From Lentisphaera araneosa HTCC2155 (lineage in GTDB: Bacteria > Verrucomicrobiota > Lentisphaeria > Lentisphaerales > Lentisphaeraceae): a DNA stretch of 64,000 bases. A program made the translations under genes and the position numbers. Below, in pieces: positions 1 to 37,394 of the stretch. Numbering within the stretch: the first letter of the stretch is position 1; the number at the start of each line of letters is the position of its first letter. The notes under the pieces were generated by a model. That model was not told where the DNA came from, ran no database searches, and saw only the letters and a list, made by a program, of their open reading frames with translations. The DNA lies in NCBI RefSeq assembly GCF_000170755.1, contig NZ_ABCK01000005.1:1-64000 (forward strand). The letters run 5' to 3'.

Positions 1-183
1 CCGAAATGAACCTAAGTCTTTTAAGTATAATAATTTATAAGGAAAATAAGTTGTGAGTTTTTCTAGAAAACAGTATTAAAGTACCCTATAAAACTTTTGT
101 TTAAATGTATAGTACTTCATCATAAACTACTATTTATCCAATAGGATACAGATAAAATAAAAGAATCCAAGGTGTCATATAGC

Positions 184-1665
184 ATGCGTAATTTTACAAG
201 TACACAAGCAGAATTAGGAGAAAACCCACTTCTCGGAGTCACGCCAATTGAACAAGTGAGACTCGACACATACTGCCGTGATGAAATAACCAAAACTCTT
301 CGTGGTTTACAAGAAATTTATCGAAACAAAGTTTTACTCAAAGAAATCCAAGATGTTTTGTCTGAATTAGTTCCTAAAGGAACATCCTGGAATGATGGAC
401 GTAAAGGAATGGATCTCTGGGTTATTTTTGTTTTAGGCACTTTGCGTTTGAGCTGTAATTGGGATTATGACAAGCTCAAAAGTTGCTATGATTATCATCA
501 CAAAATTCGGGAGATCTGTGGAGTTGATCTTTTTTGTGATGTCGACATAGTTACAGGACGCCAAACAATACACGATAACGTTAGCCTTTTTACAAAAAAA
601 ATTGCCAATAAAATTAGTAAACTCGTAGTTGCTTTCAGCCATGAATTACTTTTCCCAGAAGAACGAGAATTACATAGTCGTTGCGATTCTTTTGTTTTTG
701 AAACGAATGTTCATTTCCCCACTGATTTGAATCTATTAAAAGATTCTGTACGCAAAGTATTGAGCATCGGAGGCAAATTGGCTTCATCTTTGAAAATCAC
801 TGGCTGGCGTGAAGTAAAAAGCCAGCAAAAGAAATTCCATAGCCTTTATAATAAACTGAGCAAGATGCGTCACTCTAACTCGAAGAAAGAAGAGCGAAAG
901 GAAAAACGTCGCTTAGAAATAGAGGAGATAATTAAGGATTACCTTAGTGTGGCTCGAGCTCATTTACTCAAAGCAAGAACTCTCCAGAATTCTTTAGATG
1001 AAGAGTGTCCCAAGCTTCAGTTAAACATGGATTACACGGACTTATTCATTAAGCAAATAAGTCGTAGAGTTCTTAATGGAGAGACTATTTCACCCGATGA
1101 AAAGGTGTATTCGATTTTTGAACCTCACACAGAATGGATATGCAAAGGAAAAGCTGGGATTCGTCAGGAACTTGGCGTGAAGGTATGTGTAGTTGAAGAT
1201 CAGTTTGGCTTTATTCTCGACCATAGGATCATGAAGGGCGAGCAGGATAAAGACGTGGCGGTTGAAATGGTTCGTAAAAGTAAGGAGCTGTACCCTGGGC
1301 TGACATCGATGAGTTTTGATAAGGGTTTTTATTCAAAGGTAGATAAGGATGGTCAAAATAATCACTCCCGCATTGAAGCATTAGAGGTAAGAGCTCACCT
1401 CCCTGTAAAAGGTCGCCGAAATAAAGCTGCTCAAGAGCGTGAAAGTAAGGAGGCCTTTGTCGTCGCTCGCAAACAACACCCCGCAGTTGAATCAGCTATT
1501 AACGCTCTTGAAAGTCATGGTTTTGACCGATGCCCTGATAAGGGTACTCCTAATTTCGAACGTTATGCCGCTATGGCGATAAGTGCCAGTAATATCCATC
1601 ATCTTGGTGCTATCATCATGGCCAGAGAAATCAAAGTCCTACGTAGAAAAAGAAAAAGCGCTTAA
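184..1665 (+). CDS. ISNCY-type transposase
   Basis: About 493 residues. It resembles transposases grouped as ISNCY: a long Lys/Arg-rich coiled segment in the middle (about residues 210-265), then a DDE-like C-terminal half with the blocks EPHTEWICKGK, SFDKGFYS and HPAVESAINALE that I associate with this family. An in-frame GTG at 172 is possible, but the ATG at 184 has AAGGTG about ten bases upstream and is preferred. The frame is open throughout, so the gene may be intact. I could not define terminal inverted repeats; the left end may lie before position 1. It is followed by other IS debris, so this is an insertion hot-spot outside the tRNA islands. Confidence 0.75.
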   Translation: MRNFTSTQAELGENPLLGVTPIEQVRLDTYCRDEITKTLRGLQEIYRNKVLLKEIQDVLSELVPKGTSWNDGRKGMDLWVIFVLGTLRLSCNWDYDKLKSCYDYHHKIREICGVDLFCDVDIVTGRQTIHDNVSLFTKKIANKISKLVVAFSHELLFPEERELHSRCDSFVFETNVHFPTDLNLLKDSVRKVLSIGGKLASSLKITGWREVKSQQKKFHSLYNKLSKMRHSNSKKEERKEKRRLEIEEIIKDYLSVARAHLLKARTLQNSLDEECPKLQLNMDYTDLFIKQISRRVLNGETISPDEKVYSIFEPHTEWICKGKAGIRQELGVKVCVVEDQFGFILDHRIMKGEQDKDVAVEMVRKSKELYPGLTSMSFDKGFYSKVDKDGQNNHSRIEALEVRAHLPVKGRRNKAAQERESKEAFVVARKQHPAVESAINALESHGFDRCPDKGTPNFERYAAMAISASNIHHLGAIIMAREIKVLRRKRKSA

Positions 1666-1853
1666 AGCTCTTCATAATAATAAAAACGCCATTCACGGCG
1701 TACTTTCTCCTGCCTTGACTTAGTGAATAAATAGAAAAAAAGCCTTTGTTCTGACGCCTAGGCCTTAAAAAAATGATAATACTATGACTGCACGACACGT
1801 ATAACCATATTTTGAATTTTTATATTAACTTAAAATCATCAACAAACTCATAA

Positions 1854-2698
1854 ACACTGGGTTTTCGGTCACGCACTAACTATTTCAAGCTAAACTGGCA
1901 TACAATTAAAGCTGTTGAAAAAACATATTTAAGTAAGAAGTACAGTAAAATCTCTTTGAAACATATTAGTTCTATTGGCATCGATGAAATCCATATGGGA
2001 AAACGAATTGGCGACAAAGGCTATTTGACAATTGTGCGAGATCTAAAAAGCGGGGCGACTTTATTTGTAGGCAAAGGAAAAAAGGGGGAGTGCCTAGATG
2101 GTTTTATGAAAAAACTGAAATCCAGTAAAGCGAATATTGAGTTTGTCGCTGTGGATCTAGCTCCATCTTTTACAGCATGGATTAAGGCTAATTTGCCTCA
2201 TGCTATAATTGTTTATGATCACTTTCATGTCATCAAACTTATGAATGATAGGCTAAATAAAGTTCGAAGAAGAATTTCCAGAGAACTGGAAGATGAAGAC
2301 AAGGGTGAAATCAAAGGTCTGCGATGGAAGTTTAACAGAAACAATGAAGACCTTGAAGAAACCGCTCAAGCTGAAATAAAACAATGCTGCACCTTGTTTT
2401 CAGAACTGGGTATTACATACGCTTTAAAAGAAGCATTGAGAAGATTTATCGTATCAAAGATTTAGTTTCGTTGAAATGCATTGCATATTGGTTTGAAAAG
2501 CTGACTGTAGTAAGTCTGACTATTCTATGCAAAACATCGCAGCATGCAGCGGGATTTAGCTTTTGAAACAAAATACGTCAGCATATGAAGATTTATAATA
2601 GATCGCTGTACAAGCAGGCATATGGTTACCGAGATGAAGAATATCTCATACTCAAAATCTTTGATTTGCCTAATCTAAAAACTCGTCAGACTCTATGA
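1854..2698 (+). pseudogene. Decayed ISL3-family transposase
   Basis: The first open block (1854-2465) encodes SIGIDEIHMGK, LTIVRDLKSG, AVDLAPSF and YDHFHVIKLMN, typical of the ISL3 DDE domain. The N-terminal zinc-finger/HTH part is absent, since a stop lies at 1851. After about 2440 the reading frame shifts: residues like YRIKDLVSLKCIAYWFEK continue in another frame, and a third frame carries the C-terminal KQAYGYRDEEYLILKI block to a stop at 2698. At least two frameshifts plus the 5' truncation mean it cannot make a working transposase. A TTG at 1956 gives the longest nominal ORF but is not a credible start. Confidence 0.8.
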
Positions 2699-2723
2699 TC
2701 TTTTACAGATAAGTGCGAAGAGG

Positions 2724-2817
2724 CTTTTTTAGTACTAATAGATCTATGTTTATAGAAGTTTTGTCGACTCATTTTTAAATACTCACAGAGTTGCATAACA
2801 GTGAATGATTTGTTCAC
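2724..2817 (-). pseudogene. IS3 OrfB stub
   Basis: Immediately after orfA (TAGTG overlap) the frame reads FTVMQLCEYLKMSRQNFYKH, matching FTVKQLCNHLHMSRQNFYKN at the start of the intact OrfB (41307). It breaks off at the shared STKK. All DDE catalytic residues are missing. The sequence beyond 2724 is unrelated, marking the deletion or rearrangement junction. Confidence 0.75.
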
Positions 2818-3197
2818 TACTCTGACTCTCCAGACAGCTTCGCATCGACTTTTTTTTTGAATGCGACTTTATCTGAAACACCGAACTTATCACACGCTAT
2901 ATCAAAGTAAGCTTTATTCATAACATCACTTATAGCTAGTTCAGTTACTGTTTTCTCTAACTCAGCAATATGCTTTTTAAGAGCTTTAATCTCATCAATA
3001 TCATTTTCTGATTCCACTTCAATCACCTTTGGTAACAAGTCTGTTCTACCATACTTTTTGACCCAGGCTCTTACTGTACAAGAGCCTGATATCCCATACG
3101 CTTGGCTCGCTTCTCCACAGCTTATAAACTTACCTTTGGAGATTTCGTTTACCACTTTTTGTTTAAATGATTCACTATATCTTATTGTATCTTTCAT
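2817..3197 (-). CDS. IS3 OrfA (HTH subunit), truncated element
   Basis: 126 residues, near-identical to the OrfA at 40927-41310; differences cluster at the C-terminus (DAKLSGESE versus GVKRSKESDQ). The N-terminal half is the IS3 OrfA helix-turn-helix (SFKQKVVNEI, ISCGEASQAYGIS, TVRAWVKKYG). The C-terminal half is a leucine-zipper-like helix (IKALKKHIAELEKTVTELAI), which in this family dimerises and joins OrfB. Its OrfB partner here is only a stub. The product could interfere with transposition of the complete copy, but that is inference. Confidence 0.8.
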   Translation of the reverse strand: MKDTIRYSESFKQKVVNEISKGKFISCGEASQAYGISGSCTVRAWVKKYGRTDLLPKVIEVESENDIDEIKALKKHIAELEKTVTELAISDVMNKAYFDIACDKFGVSDKVAFKKKVDAKLSGESE

Positions 3198-3241
3198 GGG
3201 TTCTTCCTATTTTAGGTGACAACCTATATTAGGACAAGACA

Positions 3242-3505
3242 CTGTGGATAATGCCCTTCCCCCTGAAACCTGTGTCCTGTAACCCAAGCCGAAGGCGCAA
3301 TCCAAGGCAACTTGTTGCCGCCACCCAAGCGTCAGCGCAACCTGTCTATTCAATCCATGGTTAAACTATTTGTCTAAATGTGCAAACGATAACTTAGGAC
3401 TCAGTCCGTAAACTCAGCACTTTAGTGCGTCAACTCAGCCAACTAGTTTGGCGTTCCCTAAACGAGCGCAGCGATCAAAAAACTAGCACGCTAGTTTTTA
3501 CCAAA
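3242..3505. repeat. Hairpin mosaic, copy 1 (inverted orientation)
   Basis: Non-coding. On the minus strand it holds successive short palindromes joined by constant linkers: GGCAACaaGTTGCC, GCCttcGGC, GGACTgAGTCC, GCACTaaAGTGC, CCAAACTAGTTGG and AACTAGcgtgCTAGTT. Linkers resemble TTAGGTTGCG or TGAGTTGACG. The same modules recur at 40625, 42197, 43270 and 54590. Here they directly abut the IS3 left end, as they do at the complete IS3 copy. Confidence 0.7.
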
Positions 3506-3556
3506 TCCAACTTGAAAGCCCCATGAAAATAAGTATTGTCCTTTCGCTAATCACTT

Positions 3557-3638
3557 GCCGAAGTGGCGGAATTGGCAGACGCAGGGGATTCAAAATCCCC
3601 CGGCTTCGGTCGTGTGGGTTCAAGTCCCACCTTCGGTA
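3557..3638 (+). tRNA. tRNA-Leu (anticodon CAA)
   Basis: 82 nt without encoded CCA. Acceptor stem GCCGAAG pairs with CTTCGGT (first pair G-U), discriminator A at 3638. The anticodon stem-loop is GGGGA-TTCAAAA-TCCCC with anticodon CAA. There is a long class II variable arm (CGGCTTCGGTCG) and a T arm GTGGGTTCAAGTCCCAC. Together these identify a leucine tRNA reading UUG. Its 3' half is the integration site of the two downstream elements and is duplicated at 30466 and 37342, where the 5' half is absent. Confidence 0.96.
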
Positions 3639-3641
3639 CTA
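3589..3641 (+). other. att copy 1 (inside tRNA-Leu)
   Basis: 53 bases from the anticodon loop (TTCAAAATCC) to just past the gene (GGTACTA) are identical to 30466-30518 and 37342-37394. This is the usual target of tRNA-specific tyrosine integrases. This copy is the left junction of element 1, and the tRNA stays intact. Confidence 0.9.
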
Positions 3642-3645
3642 CACT

Positions 3646-3684
3646 AAGCCCTAACGACTTACGCAAGTTGTTAGGGCTTTTTCT
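3646..3684 (+). terminator. Terminator after tRNA-Leu
   Basis: AGCCCTAACgACTT and its complement AAGTtGTTAGGGCT form a long stem around ACGC, followed by TTTTTC. A hairpin of the same design but different stem sequence (AGCCTCAGTAACTT) follows the second att copy at 30523. Each element therefore probably supplied its own terminator for the restored tRNA. Confidence 0.85.
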
Positions 3685-3696
3685 TTGCCTCGTTTA

Positions 3697-3747
3697 AAAC
3701 GTTGACCAGAATAGACTGACCAGAATTGCCAAACGTTGACCAGAATT
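3697..3747. other. Arm-type repeats of integrase 1, left cluster
   Basis: Three copies of a TGACCAGAAT motif: AAACGTTGACCAGAAT at 3697, GACTGACCAGAATT at 3714 and AAACGTTGACCAGAATT at 3731. The last overlaps the integrase stop codon. A fourth copy, AAACGTTGACCAGAAA, lies at 30413, just inside the other end of element 1. Placement at both ends fits integrase arm-binding sites; this is inference. Confidence 0.6.
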
Positions 3748-5119
3748 AAGTATCTGAGGGCTTCTTTTTTGCCCTAATGACTTCTGACTTTTTAACTTCC
3801 TTAAGTTGAACCTTTACTTCATTTGATAACAATCTTGCGTAGTGAGCTCTAACGACTTCAGGGCTATTGCCCAATACAACCGCAACTTCTTCTACTGTAT
3901 AACCTGAGCGCAGCATAAGTGAGCCCATAGTATTTCGCAAGTTTTTTACTTTCATTCCATGAGCTGCTAAAATATCACGATTCGCATTACGTCCTATTTC
4001 ATCAGGCACCCATTTCTCATGATGAGTAATATTTATATCTCTTGTGATTTTATAATCACTTGGTAAGGCAAATAATATCTCGTCGCCCGCATGGTTGTCA
4101 TCAATGAACTTCAGGATACGTGGTAACAGATATTGTTTATCTACATTGACGGAGCGTTTACGATTATCTCGTTTTGTCCCTCGATGTTGATTAGCTTCAA
4201 TAAACAAAAAATACTCACCGTGGATTTCTTCAAAATCACTCCTAGTAATTCCTGACAACTCTTTGGGACCAATTCCCGTATAGGCCATAGTTGCTAAAAT
4301 CCCTGCCCAATAAGAATCACAAGAGTTTAAGACACGTTCTACTTGTGGTACATCATACCAAATTATATCGAGTTGATCTTTGCTGTATTTCTCCAAATCT
4401 TTAACCGGATTCGGTATTCTATACTTCTTGGCTGCCCAAGAAAAAAATCGAGATAATAAAGCACGAACTTTTACTTTTCGGTTATTTAGTGATTTGCCTT
4501 TTTGAACTAGCTTTGCATCCACTTCAATGAAATCATCAATATCGTCCCAGTTGTAATCTCCCACATTTTTCGTAGGGTACATTACCTGTATTTTTCTAGC
4601 GTAGCGCAAATAACCTTTAGCACTATGGGCTGTAACTTTATCTCGGATATACTTATCAAAATCATTGATGGCTATATCCATAGATACAACTTTTGCCGAT
4701 GCGATCTTGGCTAAGGTGGCTTTTTTCAAAGATTCATATTCAACTTCAATATGTTTTAACCTAGTAACTTCAGCTTCGAGATAAGCATTATGTTCTAGTA
4801 GTCCAGCGATGAATGCACAATCGCCTTCTTCCTTTGCTTGCTTCGCATAATCATGGATCTTATCAGGAACTGTATACGGTCGCTTCTCTCCGTAATACAG
4901 TTCATATACGACTGGATCTAATTCTTTATTACTTGAATCATTTATATGAAGTTTCGCTTTAGTTAAACGATCCAATTGGTTTCGACGATACTCAGCTTCA
5001 CTCTGATCTTTAGTTTTTAATGATTTATTACATCTGATATTATCAACATTATAAAACTTACAAAACCACGTTTGGCGCGGTTTATAGAGCGAAGCTTTTT
5101 TAGGTCTTCCCACACTCAT
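3746..5119 (-). CDS. Tyrosine integrase of element 1
   Basis: 457 residues. A basic N-terminus with a possible arm-binding part is followed by a SAM-like core-binding domain (about 145-235) and a C-terminal catalytic domain (about 250-440). The end NLRNTMGSLMLRSGYTVEE...VRAHYARL carries R395 and nucleophile Y427. The usual first arginine is replaced: TGIGPKEL has Gly284 where TG-x-R is expected. The usual histidines of HxxR and GH are Lys392 and Asn418. From memory, integrases with TGxGPKE exist, so this may be a subfamily rather than a dead enzyme. It reads towards the tRNA, starts with ATG, and follows the 79-residue gene by 2 bases. Confidence 0.85.
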   Translation of the reverse strand: MSVGRPKKASLYKPRQTWFCKFYNVDNIRCNKSLKTKDQSEAEYRRNQLDRLTKAKLHINDSSNKELDPVVYELYYGEKRPYTVPDKIHDYAKQAKEEGDCAFIAGLLEHNAYLEAEVTRLKHIEVEYESLKKATLAKIASAKVVSMDIAINDFDKYIRDKVTAHSAKGYLRYARKIQVMYPTKNVGDYNWDDIDDFIEVDAKLVQKGKSLNNRKVKVRALLSRFFSWAAKKYRIPNPVKDLEKYSKDQLDIIWYDVPQVERVLNSCDSYWAGILATMAYTGIGPKELSGITRSDFEEIHGEYFLFIEANQHRGTKRDNRKRSVNVDKQYLLPRILKFIDDNHAGDEILFALPSDYKITRDINITHHEKWVPDEIGRNANRDILAAHGMKVKNLRNTMGSLMLRSGYTVEEVAVVLGNSPEVVRAHYARLLSNEVKVQLKEVKKSEVIRAKKKPSDT

Positions 5120-7266: not shown

Positions 7267-7878
7267 ATGGTCTATGCTTATTTAAGAAGATCGACTCTCA
7301 AACAAATTGAAAGTATAAATGCTCAAGAACTAGAGATCAGAAGATTCGCTGAAGCTAAAGGACTAACTATTGATTCTATCCTATCCGAAACGATCAGTGG
7401 TAAAAAGGCTGTAGACGAGAGAAAGCTCAAGGAACTGAATGATAAGCTAGTTTCTGGAGATACTATTATTGCTGCTGAGCTAAGTCGCTTAGGTCGTTCA
7501 ACTATTTCAGTTATTCAATTGATCCAAAGTCTTATCGATCGTAAAGTCCGTATTATTCTGGTCAAAGAAAATATTGATATCAATGGTGATCATGACATGT
7601 CGTCTAAGGTCTTGATTTGGGTCTTCTCAATGATTTCTGAGTTAGAGCGGACAATGTTGAGTGTGCGTATTAAAGAAAGTTTAAAGTACCGCCGCGAACA
7701 AGGTGTCGTACTTGGTCGCCCAAAAGGCTCCACGTCCAAATCCGTGCTCGATGGCAAAGAGTCCATTATCAAAGATTACCTGAACAAAGGGATCTCAATA
7801 AACTCAATGAGTCGTTTGCTAGAAGTTCACCCCGGCACCGTCTCCTCGTTTATAAAAAGCCGAAAGTTACGAGAGTAG
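7267..7878 (+). CDS. Small serine recombinase (resolvase/invertase)
   Basis: 203 residues, the usual size for this family. The N-terminal catalytic domain has nucleophile Ser9 in YLRRST, the conserved SRLGRS (73-78), and the long E-helix around ELERTMLSVRIKESL. A hinge GRPKGS is followed by a C-terminal HTH (INSMSRLLEVHPGTVSSFIKS). It should catalyse resolution or inversion between short sites; the 7177-7239 repeat is the natural candidate. RBS GAGGT lies about nine bases before the ATG. It is independent of the tyrosine integrase and may resolve element multimers. Confidence 0.9.
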   Translation: MVYAYLRRSTLKQIESINAQELEIRRFAEAKGLTIDSILSETISGKKAVDERKLKELNDKLVSGDTIIAAELSRLGRSTISVIQLIQSLIDRKVRIILVKENIDINGDHDMSSKVLIWVFSMISELERTMLSVRIKESLKYRREQGVVLGRPKGSTSKSVLDGKESIIKDYLNKGISINSMSRLLEVHPGTVSSFIKSRKLRE

Positions 7879-13022: not shown

Positions 13023-13057
13023 GAGAGAAGCCACATTGAGCTTCTCTCATTTTTTTT
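13023..13057 (+). terminator. Terminator after the lipoprotein operon
   Basis: GAGAGAAGC-CACATTGAG-CTTCTCTC stem followed by ATTTTTTTT. It points rightwards, closing the 10700-12914 unit, and also borders the convergent small gene ending at 13056. Confidence 0.85.
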
Positions 13058-13226
13058 AATCACGTCCAATAACTTCTCGCAGGTTAAGTTCCTTTTTCTT
13101 TTCTTCCTTAAGGAATTTCTCCACTGCTTCAGCGGTGATAGATTTCAAACTTTGGTTCCTTTCAATTCTCAAGCGATTAATCTTACAATATAAGTCGTCA
13201 GGTATAAGGGCGTATAGTCTTCTCAT
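13056..13226 (-). CDS. Small ribbon-helix-helix-like protein
   Basis: 56 residues from the ATG at 13226, which has GGAGAAGA immediately upstream; the 11 extra residues of the longest frame (start 13259) are unlikely. RRLYALIPDDLYCKINRLRIERNQSLKSITAEAVEKFLKEE has the strand then two-helix pattern of RHH DNA-binding proteins, as in antitoxins and copy-control proteins. No toxin-like partner is adjacent; the neighbour upstream is another RHH-like gene. Confidence 0.65.
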   Translation of the reverse strand: MRRLYALIPDDLYCKINRLRIERNQSLKSITAEAVEKFLKEEKKKELNLREVIGRD

Positions 13227-13265
13227 CTTCTTCTCCTTTATACATTTGTTCTCAATCATAAAAGC

Positions 13266-13490
13266 TTAATTCATCGATCTTAAAGTAATTTCTTCAATAA
13301 TCGGCAAATCACTTAATTGCCTCTGGTCTATTAAGTTTTTGCGTGTTTGATATTTAGCTCTAAATCCATCCACACCCAAAATCAATACCGCATCAGTTGC
13401 ATCCTGAATACTAATTTCTTGCTCCGCGGCAATGATCTTTATTTGTCTATGTATGTATTTATCACTTGATATTGTCACTCTTTTCTTCAT
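13266..13490 (-). CDS. Small ribbon-helix-helix-like protein
   Basis: 74 residues from the ATG at 13490 (GGAG about nine bases upstream; a GTG two codons earlier is too close to it). KKRVTISSDKYIHRQIKIIAAEQEISIQDATDAVLILGVDGF fits an RHH strand plus two helices. It lies 39 bases upstream of the second RHH-like gene, so the two are probably co-transcribed. A DNA-binding regulator of the element is the likely role. Confidence 0.65.
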   Translation of the reverse strand: MKKRVTISSDKYIHRQIKIIAAEQEISIQDATDAVLILGVDGFRAKYQTRKNLIDQRQLSDLPIIEEITLRSMN

Positions 13491-13496
13491 CTTCAC

Positions 13497-14315
13497 TTTC
13501 TCCGTTTTATAGTTTGTTCTCTACCAAAACGAAATCGTGATTGCGCACAATGAAGTAACGTTTTACATTCGCTAAAACTGCTACAAAAAAATAACGGAAT
13601 CGAGGTTTTCTATCCGATTTTTATTATATATAAATCGGACCCCAAAATTGAGCCCCATGAGAGTGAGTACATTAACGGATTTCTTTTGGAGTCCACCCCC
13701 TTCTAGTCTTTAGGACTTTATACATCATTTTTTTTCAGGATTTATTTATCCCTCCACCCTAAGTAAAATTTAAAACCATCATTTTAGATGAACTTAGAGC
13801 CAAATCGTATTGGGTCGCGTAATTGCGGTTTTATTCCCTTAGCTAGTTAAAGAACAGAAAAAATAGTTAATTGAACTTTTACGCAATCGTTTAGGTTTCA
13901 GACTTAAGCAAGAACTCAACTTTCGAGGAGCTAGTAAAATATTCAATATTAACATTTAATTCTTGTAAAATTCGTATCTGAAGAAATTTCTAATGACACC
14001 GAGAATTATTTTTTTAGTTAAATGAGAAGTGATCGAGATTTGGTTAAAAAAAGTAAGGGGGAGCTAATAAAAAGAATGTTTAAAAAAAAAGAGTATTAAA
14101 ATAAAGAGATCAGAAGATTAGGAACCAGCCTTCCTTGCCTGCGGCGAAGGCTCTGTCCTATTGAATATTACGCTGTTACATTTTATAGCTTAAAAAGATG
14201 CCTTAAACACCTCATAAACAGTACTTTGAATATAAAACAATCATCCTCTATTAAGGCGTCCTTAATTGCTTATGAACTTCAGGTCGGATTTTCGATATAT
14301 TTAACTAAAAAAATA
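13497..14315. other. AT-rich non-coding gap with an inverted repeat
   Basis: Over 800 bases without a supportable gene. It contains TCCGATTT (13613-13620) and AAATCGGA (13632-13639), perfect complements around an AT-only spacer, a plausible operator for the nearby RHH proteins. The rest is AT-rich and without obvious repeats. Lying between two small regulators and a polymerase gene, it could include an origin, but nothing seen proves that. Confidence 0.45.
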
Positions 14316-15947
14316 TCAAACTTCATCTATTGTCACTTGTTCCATATCCACAGGGATAACTCTTCCTGTGTACATCTTACTTGCTTTCTCCATCAATGCT
14401 TTAACCTTCAATGCCTGGTTTTCAGTACCCGGAAAACACCATCCATCATGAAGGGGGATACCTAAGCTTAAATCCATTCCATGAGGACTCACCGCACTAT
14501 CCAACGCATTGAAAAAGAATTTGGCGTTTATAGTTTTAAGAATATGTTTTGGATATGTCTTATCAGCATTTTTCAGAAACTTTAAATAATCACATTGAAA
14601 CAATGTACAAACACTGATGAGTAGATCCAAGTAAAATATATAGTTCCAACTTCTATTTATTTGGGGGATGTCTTTTTTAAATAAAATGCGCGATCTTGTG
14701 CGGCCGTGATTTATTGCCGAAATCCACTCTTTAACATAAGGTCGCTTAAGTTTATTTTTTAATGTTGAATTGATGATTTCATGAAGGCGTTTGGCGATTT
14801 CAGAGTGTGGCTGTTCGCTATTCCATAATTTTTCTATGACCTCCGGTACTTCCAACAACGCTATGTTTTGATATAAATAATCGGTATTATAACGAACTTC
14901 AAATAAATCATGAAGTGCCAGTATTATACTGAAGTATAAAAATTCTTCTGCTGATTTTGTAGATCGACCAGTATCTATAAGGTTATACATCGCTTCCCAA
15001 TTTTTTGTGGAAACAATTTCTGTAATACAAACTTTTACCTTATCAAGAGTTAAGCGTCGCTTAGATCTCTCAGCAACATGTTTAATCAAAGCTTGATAAA
15101 GATCACCATAAGGAATTACTTTAGATTCTAGCAGCGCTAAAAGAACATGAAATTCACATCCACTATAATCTAGGTACCATACGCAGTTTATAGAGTTAAC
15201 AGGTATCAAAGCAGTCCGTGCTTTTCTCGGAAGATTACAGACCGGACCACTAGAAGCAAAAACTCTTCCTGACAAGCTTTGATTATATGTATTTGCATGT
15301 ACAGGGATTAAATCAGAATTTGTATAATTACAGCCGATGGCACTAAAAGTACTTTGCATTAATCGGTATTTTTCGTAATCGCATTTTTCACGGTCTAATA
15401 TATTCAAAAAAAATTTAAAACTGAAAATAAGTCCAGTATCCCCTTGTTGATATTTTTTCATTAGTTGCCCTGTCCAACCCAAAGGAACACCTGATTCATT
15501 ATTTAATATAATCTGACATGAGAAGTCTCTTTTAACATACTTGTGAGTCTTCACCCCATTTAATGTTGTGCTGTGATATCCAAGCATAACTGCTTTATAT
15601 AATAAGACTTGAGGTAGGTACCTGTGTTTCTCCGGTGGTTTATTCTTAGCCTCTGACTTATAATGACATCTATTATCAACACATTCGATTAGCTTGGCCT
15701 CACACAATGCTTTGGCTACCTTACCAAAAATCCGCTTTCGATATGATGGTTTTTTATCAAAAAAAGCGCCCTTGGGTGTCGTGTGCAAGAGCCTGTTACA
15801 TATTTCAAAAGCTAGTTCCAATTCACTCGTGGTCCCTTTTACACCTGTATTAGCAAAAGTAGCTTTTATTGCTATATACAAATTCCTACTATACGTGAAT
15901 TGACCTGTACAATTCCCAGCTTCCAATGTATTGGCTTTTCTGCTCAT
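14316..15947 (-). CDS. Divergent family-A (Pol I-like) DNA polymerase
   Basis: 543 residues. Motifs of family-A polymerases appear in order with exact internal spacing. SGR (226-228) stands for TGR around Pol I R668. Motif A is LDYSGCEF with D260 and E265, spaced as D705/E710. The O-helix has R402, K406 and H414-G415, spaced as R754/K758/Y766-G767. Motif C is LHDG with H500-D501, as H881-D882. Both catalytic aspartates are kept. Position 410, matching F762, is Ser, and the Glu after motif C is Gly. No 5' nuclease or proofreading domain is seen; residues 1-200 are unrecognised. It is probably an element replication polymerase. RBS AAGGAAC supports the start. It is divergent from a CI-like repressor gene across a large palindrome. 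Confidence 0.65.
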   Translation of the reverse strand: MSRKANTLEAGNCTGQFTYSRNLYIAIKATFANTGVKGTTSELELAFEICNRLLHTTPKGAFFDKKPSYRKRIFGKVAKALCEAKLIECVDNRCHYKSEAKNKPPEKHRYLPQVLLYKAVMLGYHSTTLNGVKTHKYVKRDFSCQIILNNESGVPLGWTGQLMKKYQQGDTGLIFSFKFFLNILDREKCDYEKYRLMQSTFSAIGCNYTNSDLIPVHANTYNQSLSGRVFASSGPVCNLPRKARTALIPVNSINCVWYLDYSGCEFHVLLALLESKVIPYGDLYQALIKHVAERSKRRLTLDKVKVCITEIVSTKNWEAMYNLIDTGRSTKSAEEFLYFSIILALHDLFEVRYNTDYLYQNIALLEVPEVIEKLWNSEQPHSEIAKRLHEIINSTLKNKLKRPYVKEWISAINHGRTRSRILFKKDIPQINRSWNYIFYLDLLISVCTLFQCDYLKFLKNADKTYPKHILKTINAKFFFNALDSAVSPHGMDLSLGIPLHDGWCFPGTENQALKVKALMEKASKMYTGRVIPVDMEQVTIDEV

Positions 15948-16113: not shown

Positions 16114-16671
16114 ATGAAAATAACAACTCCACTCATTGCCGCGATCAAAATCTACATGGATAAAGAAGAAATCAGCCAAAATCAACTGGCTCAATTAGTC
16201 GGAGTTTCGCAGCCTCAGATAGCTCGATGGTTAAATGGGACTGCCTCGTCAATGCGAGATAGCACTTATAAAAAAATTCAGCCTCTTATAGCGCATGAGC
16301 TTCGGGTGCATGAGCTTATTACTATACTTAAGAACGAAGATTCAATAAAGGACTTAACTCGTATTGAGTCTTCCGCACAGATGGATCTTATACATAATAT
16401 ATCTCACCCCGATTGCGTTTTTTATAAAACGAACAAAGTACTTAATGAATCAAGTATTGTATCCGGCGATCTCATCATCGCGAAAGATGTAAAATTGCTG
16501 CAGGAGCAAGACTTAATTATTATTGAACTCAAGGACAGTACTTTATTACTTGGCCTCTATAGCTATGATCCCAACTACATCTACTTAACCGCCAATAGTG
16601 AAACGCAAAGATACCGGCGCGGTGAGATTGCCGCAAAGAAAAAATGTGTCGGTGTGGTCAGGTCTTTTTAA
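16114..16671 (+). CDS. CI-like repressor (XRE HTH plus LexA-like fold)
   Basis: 185 residues. An XRE helix-turn-helix occupies about 7-45 (ISQNQLAQLVGVSQPQIARWLNG). The C-terminal half (about 110-185) follows the S24/LexA barrel (SIVSGDLIIAKD, ending CVGVVRSF). The cleavage nucleophile context DSM and the catalytic Lys are not evident (ESSIVSGD; LLLGLYS), so self-cleavage is doubtful. It probably represses the divergent polymerase gene and itself through the palindrome at 16050. AAGGAA supports the ATG. Confidence 0.8.
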   Translation: MKITTPLIAAIKIYMDKEEISQNQLAQLVGVSQPQIARWLNGTASSMRDSTYKKIQPLIAHELRVHELITILKNEDSIKDLTRIESSAQMDLIHNISHPDCVFYKTNKVLNESSIVSGDLIIAKDVKLLQEQDLIIIELKDSTLLLGLYSYDPNYIYLTANSETQRYRRGEIAAKKKCVGVVRSF

Positions 16672-16976: not shown

Positions 16977-17621
16977 ATGAATTACGCAACACTAATACAA
17001 CAAACACTGAATGCGCTGGGTGTGCCTTCATCCATCGCAAAAGCAATCGTGAAATTCGAGACTACTCAATGGAAAAACAAAACAACCACAAACATCATTG
17101 AGCACTTTGGAAAAATGTTAATAAGGTGGCAGGCAGACAAACGACTTACACACATTACTCATGGCAAGCTCGCCATCCTTCATTATTACTTGATTTATCA
17201 AGCTATTCACTTCGGAAAGTATAAGCAATTCCGAACATTTGAGGATTTTCTGCTACCGCAAATTAATCTAATTAATTACCTTGCTGAAGAAAGTTATGCT
17301 TCCGGTTGCCATCATATCCGTTGTAAACATTTAACTATATGGGCTAACCTTTGCAAGCTCAATTATCGTGACCCATATTACAAAGCTGCAAATTATCAGA
17401 ATATCGCTGAGCTTATTATCTGTAGCAACGATTTTTTGCCGGTGTATCAGACACTCCGTGATATTTGTCCACACCATTTCCCAGTTGAGCCGTCAGTTCT
17501 GCTGATGCGGTGCCTGATGGATTACCATAAAAAACGTTTAACATATTGTGAAGATATACTGGAAGACCTTCATTATCTGAAGATGAATCATTCTTCAAGT
17601 GAGGACGAATGTAGTCATTAA
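16977..17621 (+). CDS. Hypothetical protein of the replication-like block
   Basis: 214 residues, not recognised. Mostly helical, with many aromatic and His/Cys residues (SGCHHIRCKHLTIWANLCKL, about 109-128) that could bind metal but match no motif I know. The start is backed by AAGGATTAATA before ATG, the same upstream pattern (ATCAAGGA) as the repressor gene. It follows the iteron-like array and precedes another unknown gene in the same direction. Confidence 0.6.
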   Translation: MNYATLIQQTLNALGVPSSIAKAIVKFETTQWKNKTTTNIIEHFGKMLIRWQADKRLTHITHGKLAILHYYLIYQAIHFGKYKQFRTFEDFLLPQINLINYLAEESYASGCHHIRCKHLTIWANLCKLNYRDPYYKAANYQNIAELIICSNDFLPVYQTLRDICPHHFPVEPSVLLMRCLMDYHKKRLTYCEDILEDLHYLKMNHSSSEDECSH

Positions 17622-17706
17622 AAACCTGATTATAATCCAGCTATTTTCATGAGTGGCTGGATTCTCTCACACCTCATTGAATCAATTCACATTACGGAAC
17701 TTAAAT

Positions 17707-18591
17707 ATGAAAAATAACACTACTATTATTCAAAGTGAGAATGAATTAATCAAAGAAATTCTAAATGACCTTTGGTTTACGACGGATCTCAAAACCATTA
17801 GTTCCTATCAAAAAAGCAAAATGTATAAACAATCTATTTTGGAGAAGTTAAAAACTGTTTTAAAAAATGAATGTGCTACTGATTTTGATGACTTTCCACA
17901 AGCTCTTAAATTTAAGTTGATACTGATTTGCGAATTTTATAGAATCGCTTTCCAGAATCACAAAAAACTGCATTATTCATCATTTGATAACAGCGTGATC
18001 CATATGCTTTGGTGGCTAATAAATTCCCATATGCATGTACATAATATCTCAGACAAAAATTGTATTTTACTATGGGAGACGATTCAGCCAATTTTAAATA
18101 CGGTTGACGTATTAGAAATCACTGATTACGCATCTCTATGGACATGGAAAAAATTATTTTGGATTCTAGATGATCTCATCGAGTTTTTTAATTTCTCGTA
18201 TTTGGTCCACTATACAAAATATTTTTTACTTATGAAACCCTTGCCACACATTCCATATAATGACCAATATCATTTACCCAATATATTAAGAGAAGTCATT
18301 CCCAACTATGGAGATTTCCATGGTGATTATTGGATCGATAATTTGATGGTTGACGCTCTTGATGTTCCAATCTCAAGTGATCAAGAACGAGTAGACTTTA
18401 TAGACTTAGCAAGAGATACATTCATAGGCCATATTCCAGATGAAATAGTTGCTAAAAAAATGGTTTCAGAACTCTCACACTATATTTGTCCTGATCGAGA
18501 TAAAATCACTTTTTACACTGATGAGAATGCTGGTGACTTAGAAGATCTACTTGATGAGTGGGAAGAGGAAATGGATGATTACGGGATATAA
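17707..18591 (+). CDS. Hypothetical protein with acidic tail
   Basis: 294 residues from the ATG at 17707; the longer frame from 17653 lacks a good RBS. Not recognised. It is helix-rich and Trp-rich in the middle (WWLINSHMH, DYASLWTWKKLFWILDDL) and ends with a very acidic tail (AGDLEDLLDEWEEEMDDYG). Downstream of the 16977 gene, closed by a terminator at 18631. The acidic tail may serve protein binding. Confidence 0.6.
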   Translation: MKNNTTIIQSENELIKEILNDLWFTTDLKTISSYQKSKMYKQSILEKLKTVLKNECATDFDDFPQALKFKLILICEFYRIAFQNHKKLHYSSFDNSVIHMLWWLINSHMHVHNISDKNCILLWETIQPILNTVDVLEITDYASLWTWKKLFWILDDLIEFFNFSYLVHYTKYFLLMKPLPHIPYNDQYHLPNILREVIPNYGDFHGDYWIDNLMVDALDVPISSDQERVDFIDLARDTFIGHIPDEIVAKKMVSELSHYICPDRDKITFYTDENAGDLEDLLDEWEEEMDDYGI

Positions 18592-23394: not shown

Positions 23395-25983
23395 ATGAAT
23401 AAACAAGAGTTAGCAGCAAAAATCTGGGAGTCTGCGAACCAGATGCGATCTAAGATCGAAGCGAATGAGTATAAAGATTATATCCTGGGCTTTATCTTCT
23501 ATAAATATCTTTCCGTTCAGCTCACCAATTTTGCCCTTGAGCAAGGAATGACAGAGGAAGATATTGAGGGGTTAAATGAAGAGGATGAGGCTACAGTAGA
23601 TTACTTTAAGCAAGAACTTGGCTACTTCATTTCTTACGATGATTTGTTTTCTACTTGGTTGAAACCTGAAACGGAATTTACTGTTGCGAATGTGCGTGAT
23701 GCCTTATCTGCTTTTGGGCGTTTGATTCACCCCAATCATAAAAAGCTTTTTGATGGAATTTTTAATACTCTGGAGACGGGTTTAAGTAAACTTGGTGAAA
23801 GTGCTCAGAAGCAAACGAAAGCGATTAATGACCTTTTACACCTCATTAAGAATATTCCCATGGACGGTCAACAAGGCTATGATGTTCTTGGTTTTATCTA
23901 TGAATACCTAATCGAAAAATTTGCCGCTAATGCAGGTAAGAAAGCAGGCGAATTTTATACTCCGCATGAAGTCTCTTTACTTATGTCCGAAATTACGGCT
24001 CACCACCTCAAAGGAAATGAAACAATCGAGATCTACGACCCTACAAGTGGTTCAGGTTCTCTATTGATAAATATCGGTACTTCGGTAGCTAAATACATCG
24101 AGAATAAAGACAGTATTAAATATTATGCCCAGGAATTAAAAGGAAATACTTATAACTTAACCCGTATGAACCTCATTATGCGTGGTATCCTTCCCAATAA
24201 TATTGAAGTTCGAAATGGTGATACCTTAGAAGAAGATTGGCCTTACTTCGATGACAATGATCCACATGGTTCTTACCGGCACCTTCGTGTCGATGCGGTT
24301 GTCTCCAACCCGCCTTATTCACAAAAGTGGGACTCGGTTAATAAAGAAACCGACCCACGTTATGCGCGTTTTGGATTAGCCCCGAAAACGAAGGCAGATT
24401 TTGCTTTCCTACTTCACGACCTGTATCACGTCAAGCCAGATGGCATTATGAGTATTGTCTTGCCTCATGGGGTTCTTTTCCGCGTTGGGGAAGAAGGCGA
24501 GATCCGTAAACAACTCATTGAAAATAATCACATCGAAACGATTATCGGCTTACCTGCAAATATCTTCTTTGGCACAGGGATCCCGACAATCATTTTAGTT
24601 CTAAGACAAAAAAGACAAGGTGATGATGTCTTAATAGTTGATGCTTCTAAGCACTTTATCAAAGAAGGTAAAAGTAATAAGCTTCAAGCCTCAGACATCA
24701 AACGAGTTGTTGATACGGTGATTAATCGAGATGATAGAGATAAATTCTCTAGACTTGTTAAAAAATCTGAGATTCGTGAGAATGAATATAACCTGAATAT
24801 CCCTCGTTATGTAGATTCATCCGAAGATGCTGAAAACTGGGATCTCCACGCTACGATGTTAGGGGGCATTCCCAATAGTGAAATAGATCAATTAAAATCC
24901 TATTGGTCAGCTTTCTCTGACTTACGAAAAACCTTATTTAGCCCGAAAAATGAAGCTTATTCCAACTTGGCCGTGGAATCGAGCCTCGTTAGGCAGAGCA
25001 TCACCGAGCATTCTGATTTGGTGAATTTCAAAAAGTCTTACCAAGAAACTTTTACCGGCTTTGATGAATCACTTGAAAATCAGCTAATTACAAATTGGCA
25101 AAGCATAAATCGCGATCGCCATGAAGCGACTTTGGCGGAAGAACTTTTTGATCGCTTGAGTTCAGTTGAATTAGTGGATCGTTATGCGGCTTATCAGATT
25201 CTCAATAATTATTGGCAAGTCATATCAAACGATTTGGAAATGATGCAGACCGAAGGCTTTGAAGCGACTAAGCAAGTTGATGCCAATATGGTGACCAAAA
25301 AGAAAAGTGGTAAAGATGTCACGGTGCAAGACGGCTGGGCAGGTCATATCTTGCCATTTACTCTTGTGCAGGAGACACTTCTTGCCGATGACTTAGAGGC
25401 TTTACGAGCGCAAGAAAATCGCCTCGCAGAAATATCGGGATGTCTTGAAGAGATTTTGGATTCACTCTCCGAAGAAGATAAAGAAGGCGAAAGCATCAAA
25501 GAAAGTCAGGATGGTTTTGTAAATACCATAGTGGCTAAAGAAGCTAAGCAGTTCAAAGCGGAGGCTAAAAAGCAAGGAGCTTTCCCCGAAGAAAGTTACG
25601 AAGCTAAAATTATCCAAGTCGCCGATTTAATTGCAGAAGAGAAGAAAGTCAAAAAAGCCCTTAAAGAGGCTGAGCTGGCTCTTCACTCAAAAACGAAAGA
25701 TACTATCGAAAATCTTTCTGATGAAGGCGTCAATGAGCTTCTGAAACTCAAGTGGATCTGTCCCTTAGTCCAAGAAATCGACGAATTATCTGACTCGCTT
25801 ATTTCTAATTTGGCTAATCAAGTTCAAATCTTGGCCGATAAGTATGCGGTGACTTATGGAGAAGTTGAGAGTAAGATTAGAGAAACAGAGCAGTCTCTCC
25901 TTGGCTTGATGAGTGAACTTACTGGGAATGAATTCGACCTTGAAGGAATGACTGAGCTACAAAAACTATTTGAAGGTTCTTGA
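23395..25983 (+). CDS. hsdM: Type I restriction-modification, M subunit
   Basis: 862 residues. An N-terminal HsdM helical domain (about 1-140), then an N6-adenine methylase with GEFYTP (185-190), DPTSGSGSLL (215-224, SAM motif I) and NPPYSQ (305-310, catalytic motif IV). Residues after about 520 form a long helical, acidic extension (coiled coil around 655-760) not found in the roughly 500-residue classical HsdM. Methylates the HsdS-specified sequence and, with HsdR, restricts unmodified DNA. Thirty-four bases after kwaB; the stop is one base before hsdS. Confidence 0.95.
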   Translation: MNKQELAAKIWESANQMRSKIEANEYKDYILGFIFYKYLSVQLTNFALEQGMTEEDIEGLNEEDEATVDYFKQELGYFISYDDLFSTWLKPETEFTVANVRDALSAFGRLIHPNHKKLFDGIFNTLETGLSKLGESAQKQTKAINDLLHLIKNIPMDGQQGYDVLGFIYEYLIEKFAANAGKKAGEFYTPHEVSLLMSEITAHHLKGNETIEIYDPTSGSGSLLINIGTSVAKYIENKDSIKYYAQELKGNTYNLTRMNLIMRGILPNNIEVRNGDTLEEDWPYFDDNDPHGSYRHLRVDAVVSNPPYSQKWDSVNKETDPRYARFGLAPKTKADFAFLLHDLYHVKPDGIMSIVLPHGVLFRVGEEGEIRKQLIENNHIETIIGLPANIFFGTGIPTIILVLRQKRQGDDVLIVDASKHFIKEGKSNKLQASDIKRVVDTVINRDDRDKFSRLVKKSEIRENEYNLNIPRYVDSSEDAENWDLHATMLGGIPNSEIDQLKSYWSAFSDLRKTLFSPKNEAYSNLAVESSLVRQSITEHSDLVNFKKSYQETFTGFDESLENQLITNWQSINRDRHEATLAEELFDRLSSVELVDRYAAYQILNNYWQVISNDLEMMQTEGFEATKQVDANMVTKKKSGKDVTVQDGWAGHILPFTLVQETLLADDLEALRAQENRLAEISGCLEEILDSLSEEDKEGESIKESQDGFVNTIVAKEAKQFKAEAKKQGAFPEESYEAKIIQVADLIAEEKKVKKALKEAELALHSKTKDTIENLSDEGVNELLKLKWICPLVQEIDELSDSLISNLANQVQILADKYAVTYGEVESKIRETEQSLLGLMSELTGNEFDLEGMTELQKLFEGS

Positions 25984-25984
25984 T

Positions 25985-27202
25985 ATGCATAATAATTCTG
26001 TAGAACCAGTTTTAAGATTTAAAGGATTAAATGGATGTTGGAAAGAAAGCCCATTGATGGAAGTTGCAGATATAATTGATGGAGATCGAGGTAGTAACTA
26101 TCCCAGTGGAGATGACTTGAACACAAGTGGACATACCCTTTTTCTAAATGCATCCAATGTTACTAAAAGCGGTTTTATATTTAATACTAATCAATATATA
26201 ATAAAGAAAAAATCCGATGCGATGGGTAACGGCATGTTATCTCTTGATGATATTATCATAACATCAAGAGGTTCAGTCGGGAATGTTGCTTGGTATAGTG
26301 GTGAGATTCATCAAGAAATACCATTTGCACGCATTAATTCGGGAATGTTAATTATTCGTTGTAAAAATATGCTGACCCCTACTTTTATAACCTGTTTATT
26401 GATGTCGCCACTTGGCAGGAGACAAATTAGTACCATTACATTCGGTAGCGCTCAGCCTCAACTGACTAAAAAGGATGTCTCAATCTTTACCGTTTCATTT
26501 CCTGTGGATAAACAAGAACAAGCCAAAATCGGTAAGTACTTTCAGCAAGTCGATAAGTTGATTAATAATCATCAAGAAAAGCATAAGAAGCTCCAAAATA
26601 TTAAAAAAGCGATGCTCAAAAAGATGTTCCCACAAGCGGGGCAGTCAGTGCCAGAAATTCGTTTCAAAGGTTTTAGTGGTGATTGGGAATTTCAAACTTT
26701 AGACGAAGTTGCTACTAAACACGATAACTCTAGGGTTCCTATAACAGCAAAAGATAGAATAGCTGGTGTGACACCATATTACGGGGCTAATGGTATTCAA
26801 GATTATGTTGAAGGCTTCACTCATGAAGGCGAATATGTCTTATTAGCAGAGGACGGTGCTAATGATCTGAAAAATTATCCCATCAATTATGTTACTGGAA
26901 AAATATGGGTTAATAATCATGCACATGTTCTTCAGGGGAAAAACTACAAGACCTCCACCCTGTATCTTAAGTATGCCATTTCACAAATAGATATTGAACC
27001 GTTTTTAGTTGGAGGCGGACGAGCTAAACTTAATGCATCAGTCATGATGAATTTGGGATTGAGCCTACCGGAGAAAATCCAAGAACAAGAAAAAATTGGT
27101 TCTTACTTTAAATCTCTCGACAATTTAATAAGCCAGCACGATCAACAAATTCAAAAACTTCAGAACATTAAACAAGCTTGCTTGAGCAAGATGTTTGTAT
27201 AG
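25985..27202 (+). CDS. hsdS: Type I restriction-modification, S subunit
   Basis: About 405 residues from the ATG at 25985; a TTG frame starts at 25970. There are two target-recognition domains (about 1-180 and 215-365), each followed by the conserved helix (IGKYFQQVDKLINNHQEKHKKLQNIKKAMLKKMFP and IGSYFKSLDNLISQHDQQIQKLQNIKQACLSKMF, split here into named repeats). FKGF-W motifs open each domain. It sets DNA specificity, here a bipartite site that cannot be read from sequence. It ends 10 bases before the hsdR ATG, and the longer hsdR frame overlaps it. Confidence 0.93.
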   Translation: MHNNSVEPVLRFKGLNGCWKESPLMEVADIIDGDRGSNYPSGDDLNTSGHTLFLNASNVTKSGFIFNTNQYIIKKKSDAMGNGMLSLDDIIITSRGSVGNVAWYSGEIHQEIPFARINSGMLIIRCKNMLTPTFITCLLMSPLGRRQISTITFGSAQPQLTKKDVSIFTVSFPVDKQEQAKIGKYFQQVDKLINNHQEKHKKLQNIKKAMLKKMFPQAGQSVPEIRFKGFSGDWEFQTLDEVATKHDNSRVPITAKDRIAGVTPYYGANGIQDYVEGFTHEGEYVLLAEDGANDLKNYPINYVTGKIWVNNHAHVLQGKNYKTSTLYLKYAISQIDIEPFLVGGGRAKLNASVMMNLGLSLPEKIQEQEKIGSYFKSLDNLISQHDQQIQKLQNIKQACLSKMFV

Positions 27203-27212
27203 GGGGAATGGT

Positions 27213-30200
27213 ATGAGCACATTTAAAACAGAAGCAGAATTTGAAGAAGCCCTTATCGCAGTACTGAAAGATAAAGGTTGGGAAAATGAAGTTATCAAGA
27301 ACCCAAGGGAAGAAGATTTACTAAAAAACTGGGCGAATATTCTATTTGAGAATAATCGGGATATTGATCGCCTCAATGATGTGCCACTTACAGGTGGTGA
27401 GATGCAGCAGATCATCGAGCAAATTACTGAATTAAAGACTCCTTTGAAACTCAATAACTTTATTAATGGGAAAACAGTTTCCATAAAGCGCGATAATCCA
27501 GAGGACAAACTTCACTTAGGCAAAGAAGTGAGCTTAAAGATATATGACCGTCAGGAAATTGCTGCGGGTCAAAGTCGCTACCAAATTGTTCAGCAACCCA
27601 AATTCAAACGAGGGTCGAAACTCTTTAATGATCGCCGTGGTGATTTGATGCTGCTGATCAATGGTATGCCAGTGATTCATTTGGAGCTTAAGCGCAGTGG
27701 GATCTCAGTTAATCAAGCGAGTAATCAAATCCAGAAGTACTCCGCCGAAGGAATTTTTACAGGTCTCTTTTCCTTAGTACAAGTTTTTGTCGCCATGACT
27801 CCTGAAGAGACTAAGTATTTTGCGAATACAGGAAGCGATGGGAAGTTCAATAGCGATTATTTCTTTAATTGGGCGGATTTTAATAATGAGCCCATGAATG
27901 ATTGGAAAAAAATTGCAGAGACGCTCATTTCTATTCCCATGGCTCACGAGTTAATAGGTTACTATACAGTGGCAGATAATAGTGATGGCATTTTGAAAGT
28001 CATGCGCAGTTATCAATACAATGCAGCTAAGGAGATATCATCTGCAGTAGCAAAACATAAGTGGCATGAGAATGGATCACACAGTGATAGTTTAGGCGGT
28101 TTTATCTGGCACACCACTGGCTCGGGAAAAACGATGACGAGCTTTAAATCTGCTCAATTGATTGCTCAGTCTAACAATGCGGATAAAGTGGTTTTCTTAA
28201 TGGATCGCATAGAGTTAGGAACTCAGTCTTTAGAGCAGTACGAAAACTTTGCTGATGATAAGGATGACGTACAAGCGACTGATAATACCGATATGTTGGT
28301 CGATAAGCTCAAAAATGCTAAAGATATACTTATTGTTAGCTCAATTCAAAAAATGAGTAATGTCTTTGAAGATGTAGATGACATTAGTAAAGCGACAAAT
28401 AGTGAAGATATAAGGTTAATTCGCGAAAAAAGAGTCGTTTTTATTATTGATGAAGCTCATCGCTCAACGTTTGGTGATATGCTAAGCGTTATTAAAAAGA
28501 CATTTTCGGAAGCTCTCTTCTTTGGTTTTACAGGTACGCCCATTGATGAAGAAAATAAGAAAAACAATAGCACGACAAGCGATATCTTTGGTAATGAATT
28601 ACATCGCTACACCATTGCGGATGGTATCCGAGATAAAAACGTATTGGGTTTTGATCCTTATAAGGTTTCTACTTTTAAAGATAAGGATTTACGCAGAGCG
28701 ATTGCTTTAGAAAAAGCCAAGGCTGGCTCGGAAGAAGAAGTCTTTGCGGATGAGAAAAAGACAGAAGTTTATAATCACTACATGAATAATGTGCCGATGG
28801 CTGGTTATAAAGATGAATTGGGCAAATGGGTTAAAGGCATTGAAGATTATATTCCTAAAGCGCAATATTTGGGAGATGAGCATCCGCAGGCGGTAGTCGA
28901 TGATATTGTGAGTAACTGGACACAATATAGTCAGGGCAATAAGTTCCATGCCATTTTTGCCACCAGTAGTATTTCTGAAGCTATTCAGTATTACCGTCGT
29001 TTTAAAGTGGCTAAGCCAGACTTGAAAATTTCGGCTTTATTTGACCCTAATATTGATAATGACGATACGAACAATGGTGATGTCTTATTTAAGCAGAAGG
29101 GCTTAGAGGAAATCATGACTGACTATAATACTTTGTATAATCAAAAATTTGATTTTGCGAGGCATGCTAAGTTTAAAAAAGATTTATCAAACCGCCTAGC
29201 ACATAAAGAAAGCTATAAGAGATTGGAGAACGATCAGCAGTTGGATTTACTGATAGTGGTTAATCAAATGCTTACTGGATTCGATTCAAAGTGGCTAAAT
29301 ACGCTCTACATAGATAAGCTTTTAGAATATGAGAATATCATCCAGGCTTTCTCGCGTACCAATCGTTTGTTTGGTCCGAATAAGCCATTTGGGACTATTC
29401 GTTATTATCGTTACCCACATACAATGGAACGCAATATTGATGATGCGGTGAAAGCCTACTCGGGCGACAAGAAGATTGGCCTTTTTGTTGATCCTCTTGA
29501 AAAGAATCTCGAAAAGATGAATGCGCTTTATTCAGAAATTGAGGAGCTCTTTGAGAATGCCGAGATAAAGGAGTTTGAAAAGCTTCCTTCGGACTCGTCT
29601 GTTTGTGCTCAATTCGCTAAATTGTTTAAGGATTTTAATGATCATTTAGATGCCGCTAATATTCAGGGCTTTGATTGGGATAAGACGGTTTATACTTTTG
29701 AAAAATCTACGATTGAACTCGCGTTTGATGAGCCCATCTACCATGCTCTTGTTCAACGTTATAAAGAACTTTTTGAGAGTGGAACAGGTGAAGGTGCTGG
29801 ATCAGGTGCTCCTGCAATTCCCTATGATGTCTATTCGCACATTACGGAAATTGATACGGGTAAAATTGATACGGACTATATGAATAGTCGTTTTGAAAAG
29901 TACTTAAGAGTCTTAAAGCAAGAAGCCTCTTCCCCTGAGGAAGTCGAGCAGACACAAAATGAACTTCATAAGTCATTTGCATCTCTTTCTCAGGAAGAGC
30001 AGAAATATGCCAATATACTGCTTCATGAAATCCAGAAAGGGGCACTGCAAATTCAACCTGGAAGAAATTTTAGAGATTACATAACAGAGTATCAAACTCA
30101 GGTCGAAGCAGAGCAGATCAAAGCTATCGTTAAGGCTTTTAACTTAGATGAAGCAAAGCTAGTCGAACTTATGACGATTGGAGTGAATGAGAAGACTATT

Positions 30201-30428: not shown

Positions 30429-30465
30429 GACTTTTAGAAAAAGTGATTTGTGCTTATGCTATGGC

Positions 30466-30518
30466 TTCAAAATCCCCCGGCTTCGGTCGTGTGGGTTCAA
30501 GTCCCACCTTCGGTACTA
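30466..30518 (+). other. att copy 2 (junction of elements 1 and 2)
   Basis: 53 bases identical to the 3' half of tRNA-Leu(CAA). No D arm or acceptor 5' strand precedes it (the sequence there reads TGCTATGGC), so it is not a tRNA gene. It is followed by its own terminator hairpin (30523-30560). Confidence 0.9.
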
Positions 30519-37246: not shown

Positions 37247-37341
37247 TGCACTGAAATGAACCATTATGAACTGAGTACTATTTAAGTACGAAACATTCGA
37301 TAAGTGTAATAAAAGTACTTCTTTTTTTACCCATAAGTAGA

Positions 37342-37394
37342 TTCAAAATCCCCCGGCTTCGGTCGTGTGGGTTCAAGTCCCACCTTCGGTACTA
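37342..37394 (+). other. att copy 3 (right end of element 2)
   Basis: 53 bases identical to the tRNA-Leu 3' half, again without a 5' half. It is followed by AAATAAGGGT and an imperfect hairpin ending in ACCCT, likely the original chromosomal tRNA terminator. It marks the return to pre-island chromosome. Confidence 0.9.

Follow-up and report, generated by a model that had tools for sequence, protein, structure and literature searches.

Superfamily A DNA polymerases of mobile elements have been grouped as transposon-virus polymerases (TV-Pols; Iyer, Abhiman & Aravind 2008, PMC2579912), which are A-family enzymes of 400–600 residues that carry no nuclease domains, possess in a subset an N-terminal all-helical domain, and have been proposed to be primase-polymerases. 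Their genes lie in integration hot spots beside a resolvase, a phage-type integrase or a transposase, often together with restriction-modification operons, and only in a subset is a D5-like helicase linked or fused to the polymerase (PMC2579912).

Two other groups of A-family enzymes come from comparable surroundings. The CcPol/PolA-SSB primases of SCCmec and Bacillota islands are recognisable A-family polymerases that adjoin an OB-fold SSB and a helicase (PMC10061031), and for one of them, the mobile-island enzyme CcPol-MP, de novo priming has been shown (Rice 2023, PMC10061031). The RT-associated PolA of defence loci (RTasPolA) has a reverse transcriptase as its partner.

Here we analyse a gene from the marine bacterium Lentisphaera araneosa HTCC2155, whose genome assembly holds 6,023,180 bases in 81 contigs; the window is the 64,000-nucleotide stretch at positions 1 to 64,000 of contig NZ_ABCK01000005.1, and all coordinates refer to it.

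Gene and protein

The gene occupies 14316–15947 on the minus strand as an open reading frame with an ATG start, an upstream AAGGA resembling a ribosome-binding site, and a frame that is intact across 543 codons. Just past its stop codon lies a perfect 17-nt inverted repeat (14007–14023 and 14299–14315), the two arms being 275 nt apart. Translation of the minus-strand frame confirms R228, D260, E265, R402, K406, S410, H414-G415 and H500-D501-G502 by position in the 543-residue product (P0001), as given in the initial annotation, which was also right that the spacings D-x4-E in motif A and R-x3-K-x7-[aromatic/H]-G in the R402/K406 helix are those of Pol I. It had further described the protein as lacking an exonuclease domain, and family searches detect none.

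P0001 has no family match in Pfam, NCBIfam or PHROGs, and no close homologue in 388 genomes of the phylum and 198 of the class. At the sensitivity used, the whole protein finds no homologue in collections of viral and genome contigs, nor do its N-terminus and motif block find one among viral contigs. Searches of phages and plasmids by tblastn returned no homologue, with one plasmid match at E=10, and a PDB sequence search gave chance-level matches only. Fixed-spacing DNA patterns matched a single locus (L049), which was judged a chance match and not a polymerase; a second pattern search matched none.

Homology to superfamily A polymerases

The best database profile match of P0001 is to the PADLOC RTasPolA profile (residues 209–298, E=5.8e-4), which we read as a superfamily signal because the same profile also matches ordinary Pol I. 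HMMs built from the polymerase domains of phage and bacterial PolA give E values of 7e-6 (above 2000/2000 shuffles) and 1e-5 (above 3000/3000), with the signal always on the block that holds the Arg hairpin (R228) and motif A (D260-Y-S-G-C264-E265). This block, residues 219–274 (15126–15293, minus strand), is the strongest in the protein: it outscores all composition-preserving shuffles with the PolA HMM at E values of 2e-6 to 1e-5 (best 2.2e-6), reaches 5.4e-6 with a TV-Pol HMM, and gives 1.3e-4 to 1.5e-4 in hhalign. Significant homology spans residues ~209–298 by three profiles (RTasPolA, PolA HMM and TV-Pol HMM). Motif C alone is weak by the PolA profile (rank 43/1001), D260 and H500-D501 nonetheless standing in the right order.

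These sequence comparisons speak for homology between P0001 and the DNA polymerases of superfamily A. The family-A assignment of the initial annotation is upheld by three independent profiles, and a structure model, biased as it is (see below), is compatible with it. With classical family A (Pol I and phage PolA; PF00476) P0001 has in common a TGR-like hairpin, N-[LI]-P-R, a motif A of the form DYS-x-x-E and a possible R-x3-K-x7-x-G helix; it differs in having no Pfam match, HDG in place of HDE, Ser at the position of F762, no clear Q849, no exonuclease and a large insert.

Comparison with TV-Pols

A BFVD fold search listed virophage polymerases, which pointed to the TV-Pol family. We collected TV-Pols and homologues from Microcystis phage Ma-LMM01 (MAP_030, assigned as a TV-Pol by its adjoining transposases and its motifs), two Polaromonas plasmids, a Calothrix plasmid, a congener of the host and a viral contig (L128). 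In the congener (genome G001), the locus L126 6838–10539 comprises a clear TV-Pol of 452 residues with HDG and D-x3-C together with the adjoining genes for a phage-type integrase and an HTH protein. The homologues on the small Polaromonas glacier plasmids (L123, 2287–3792; L125, 37–1653) had gone unrecognised; one is annotated 'Clp protease N-terminal domain' and one adjoins RepA.

In an alignment of four TV-Pols, the invariant columns include the hairpin Arg, D-x3-C in motif A, K-x8-G in the fingers and H-D-G in motif C. D-x3-C and HDG are both present in all four (4/4) and in the viral L128, and are absent from classical PolAs (D-x3-C 0/28, HDG 0/38). P0001 carries both, as D260-x3-C264 and as H500-D501-G502, the latter in the motif C segment P-L-H500-D501-G502-W (residues 498–506; 14430–14456, minus strand). 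This pair of motifs, a criterion derived in the present analysis from the TV-Pols collected, separates those TV-Pols from classical PolAs and places P0001 with the former.

Profile scores are less generous. An HMM of six TV-Pol sequences matches P0001 at E=8.5e-7, above 4000/4000 shuffles, but with 14 bits, as against 40–168 bits for true TV-Pols when each is left out in turn; TV-Pol membership is less secure because P0001 scores so far below the others. With an earlier five-sequence HMM, 1/3000 shuffles scored marginally above P0001, and 114/200,000 shuffles (0.06%) satisfy a loose TV-Pol signature of ordered motifs, which is missing from 1/5 complete TV-Pols (L128). Outside residues 217–340 no significant block was found with the TV-Pol profiles, the N-terminal and motif-C sub-profiles failing. 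The TV-Pols collected have an N-terminal extension of ~200 residues, as P0001 does, and an N-terminal TV-Pol HMM does not match that of P0001. In the latter, single-sequence AF2 suggests a winged-helix-like H-H-H-E-E segment (residues 20–96; 15660–15890, minus strand) at a low pLDDT of 45–59.

P0001 shares with TV-Pols a standalone form of 400–600 residues with a superfamily A core, the two metal-ligand Asp, the Arg hairpin, HDG and D-x3-C, together with the lack of an exonuclease, an extra N-terminal domain, and a mobile element with resolvase/integrase and a restriction system. It differs from them in a longer segment between motifs A and C, in a Pol I-like Glu at +5 of motif A, and in that no D5-like helicase was seen among the island ORFs scanned. 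On balance P0001 is probably a nucleic-acid polymerase of superfamily A that belongs to the TV-Pol type and has diverged extremely far. The suggestion in the initial annotation of a possible new family-A branch needs revising, as HDG, the missing exonuclease, the N-terminal domain and the mobile setting are all common to TV-Pols; by its sequence P0001 looks most like an extreme member of the kind described in 2008, and not like a new kind of enzyme. A third superfamily A branch, apart from Pol I and TV-Pol, with a mixed motif A (D-Y-S-G-C-E), unusual fingers or insert and an N-terminal DNA-binding domain of its own, serving a tRNA-island replicon, is possible but rather doubtful.

Placement of the fingers helix and structure models

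The initial annotation had assigned R402, K406 and H414-G415 to the fingers O-helix. The candidate helix RPYVKEWISAINHG (residues 402–415; 14703–14744, minus strand) has K406-x8-G415 (K+9=G), a spacing found also in TV-Pols and PolA, and 0.4% of shuffles of the region contain a string of the form R-x3-K-x7-[YFHW]G. PSSMs of Pol I helix N and the O-helix score highest in P0001 at 377 and 402, respectively, which matches the Pol I order and spacing (joint p=0.0027). This placement implies that ~90 residues are inserted behind motif A. When P0001 is aligned to TV-Pols by MAFFT or HMM, the fingers instead come shortly behind motif A, with two rival placements, LTLDKVKVCITEIVS / TKNWEAMYNLIDTG (residues 299–327; 14967–15053, minus strand), and not at 402–415, and MAFFT with PolA rows mostly puts them elsewhere, every row falling on R402 in only 2/150 random row sets. 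The PSSM result speaks for the assignment and the TV-Pol profiles for ~299–327; R402/K406 is a plausible candidate for the O-helix.

Single-sequence AF2 of the whole of P0001 (pLDDT 33) is unusable save for the weak N-terminal helical, winged-helix-like hint. Residues 215–543 were also modelled with 12 viral PolA rows, a row set picked for aligning R402 and both Asp and hence biased; the model has a mean pLDDT of 56, a pTM of 0.51 and a palm at 74–86 around D260 and D501. In a fold search with it, each of the PDB matches listed belongs to family A, the best having a Z of 9.9 across 221 residues. Because the rows were selected for motif alignment, we take the model as a sign of compatibility only.

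The fingers bear directly on whether P0001 is a truncated, fast-evolving phage polymerase of the Pol I type which has lost its exonuclease and has its O-helix at R402/K406 behind the ~90-residue insert, and is not a TV-Pol. The joint PSSM result, with Pol I order and spacing, would fit such an origin, as would E265 at the position of E710 and PolA HMM scores nearly equal to the TV-Pol scores. The classical PolAs tested lack both HDG and D-x3-C, Q849, invariant in the PolA set, has no clear counterpart in P0001, no exonuclease remnant was found, and a large insertion plus a deletion of ~24 residues would be required; a Pol I-type origin is therefore unlikely.

Genomic setting

The polymerase gene lies inside a 26.9-kb island at a tRNA-Leu gene, with a tandem 6.9-kb island that has its own integrase next to it. 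The repeats that bound the islands, all on the plus strand, are the 3' end of tRNA-Leu (att copy 1, 3586–3640), att copy 2 at the right end of the 26.9-kb island (30463–30517) and att copy 3 at the right end of the tandem island (37340–37393). Beside attL is a tyrosine-recombinase-like integrase gene (3746–5119, minus strand), recognised by eye from a C-terminal motif; it has no Pfam match at 1e-4, and its 3' part is 73% identical, at the DNA level, to sequence that a congener carries at this tRNA. A serine recombinase/resolvase follows (7267–7878, plus strand; Pfam Resolvase, 1.4e-27). The mobile island proposed in the initial annotation is borne out by the tRNA-Leu 3'-end repeats, the integrase and the resolvase. 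The second, tandem element has its integrase at 30669–31862 (plus strand; Pfam Phage_integrase, 1.6e-20). A similar tandem layout is seen at this tRNA in a congener. Congener G001 has three att copies, and its site also holds a relative of 35764–37119 and a gene akin to the left integrase; in congener G002 there is a single att copy within the 16 kb examined.

Downstream of the polymerase gene are two minus-strand ORFs of 67 (13056–13259) and 76 residues (13266–13496), which by eye resemble small DNA-binding proteins. A Cro/CI-type HTH regulator (16114–16671, plus strand; Pfam HTH_3, 6.2e-7) is transcribed divergently, followed on the same strand by two orphan ORFs of 214 (16977–17621; no family above cut-off) and 312 residues (17653–18591; no family), neither with a match in 60 relatives. 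The cargo includes a type I restriction-modification operon (hsdM, hsdS and hsdR by Pfam; 23395–30374, plus strand). Between 8024 and 10388 the island also holds a Ser/Thr kinase gene, then a sigma-70 region 2 (ECF-like) gene, then two membrane/lipoprotein-like ORFs. Among the island ORFs scanned, none was recognised by family match as a helicase or an SSB that could partner the polymerase. An integration hot spot that holds resolvase/integrase and restriction genes fits the description of TV-Pols.

The defence cargo, the RT-associated PolA of a defence system as nearest database profile, the very high divergence, the Ser at F762, the missing clear Q849 and the orphan status of the gene could all be accommodated by a degenerate or repurposed polymerase fold, such as a regulator or defence protein of the restriction island, in which the motif was kept and DNA synthesis lost. 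Against this, P0001 retains the two catalytic Asp, the Arg and one or more candidates for the fingers Lys, its 543-codon frame is intact, and no reverse transcriptase ORF was seen nearby; we hold such a loss of function to be improbable. An RT-linked defence PolA, as at L007, was likewise considered, and no RT was seen near P0001. The L007 locus itself (33–4277, in another Verrucomicrobiota genome, G108) comprises three consecutive ORFs, RT-like, PolA (539 residues) and HsdS-like, and is of the RTasPolA type.

Discussion

Two further explanations carry little weight. The resemblance of P0001, as an unrelated protein, to superfamily A could be due to chance in that no database family is matched at its curated cut-off and the significant block covers only ~60 residues, but three independent profiles place the same block above all or nearly all shuffles and the motifs are in order, which makes chance very improbable. 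A relative of T7-like single-subunit RNA polymerases, a class that has R-x3-K-x7-YG and HD motifs in common with P0001, is rejected as scarcely credible, since an HMM of seven phage RNAPs does not match (a set gathered by using a short piece of the T7 palm as bait; P0001 ranks 382 among the 1359 sequences reported, shuffles included), the R228-to-D260 spacing (32) is DNAP-like and E265 is at the steric-gate position.

As a TV-Pol-type enzyme, P0001 most likely synthesises DNA on a template and so replicates the island once it has been excised, an activity predicted from its sequence. The palm with R228, D260 and D501 and a fingers Lys, either K406 or a nearer one, would carry out two-metal DNA synthesis, while the N-terminal helical, winged-helix-like part may bind the element's own DNA or a partner. 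On the circular form of the island it would prime and/or extend synthesis, as has been proposed for TV-Pols, and the divergent CI-type regulator may control the polymerase. We consider priming because it is established for CcPol-MP, and by that analogy P0001 is perhaps also a primase. The CcPol/PolA-SSB systems have in common with this locus an A-family polymerase, an integrating island, and recombinase and restriction genes, whereas neither their SSB nor their helicase partner is recognised by family match near P0001; with no helicase recognised in the island, the polymerase would need a host helicase or an unrecognised one. RTasPolA differs in its RT partner, no reverse transcriptase ORF being seen near P0001.

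Few polymerases of mobile elements are as poorly characterised as the TV-Pols. Work on PolA-SSB has established that A-family enzymes can act as primases (PMC10061031). Polymerase genes such as this one stay unannotated, P0001 being recognised by no general family library. As an orphan that has both TV-Pol and Pol I motif features, P0001 could help to establish what the minimal superfamily core is, and it could serve as a test of autonomous replication by such tRNA islands.
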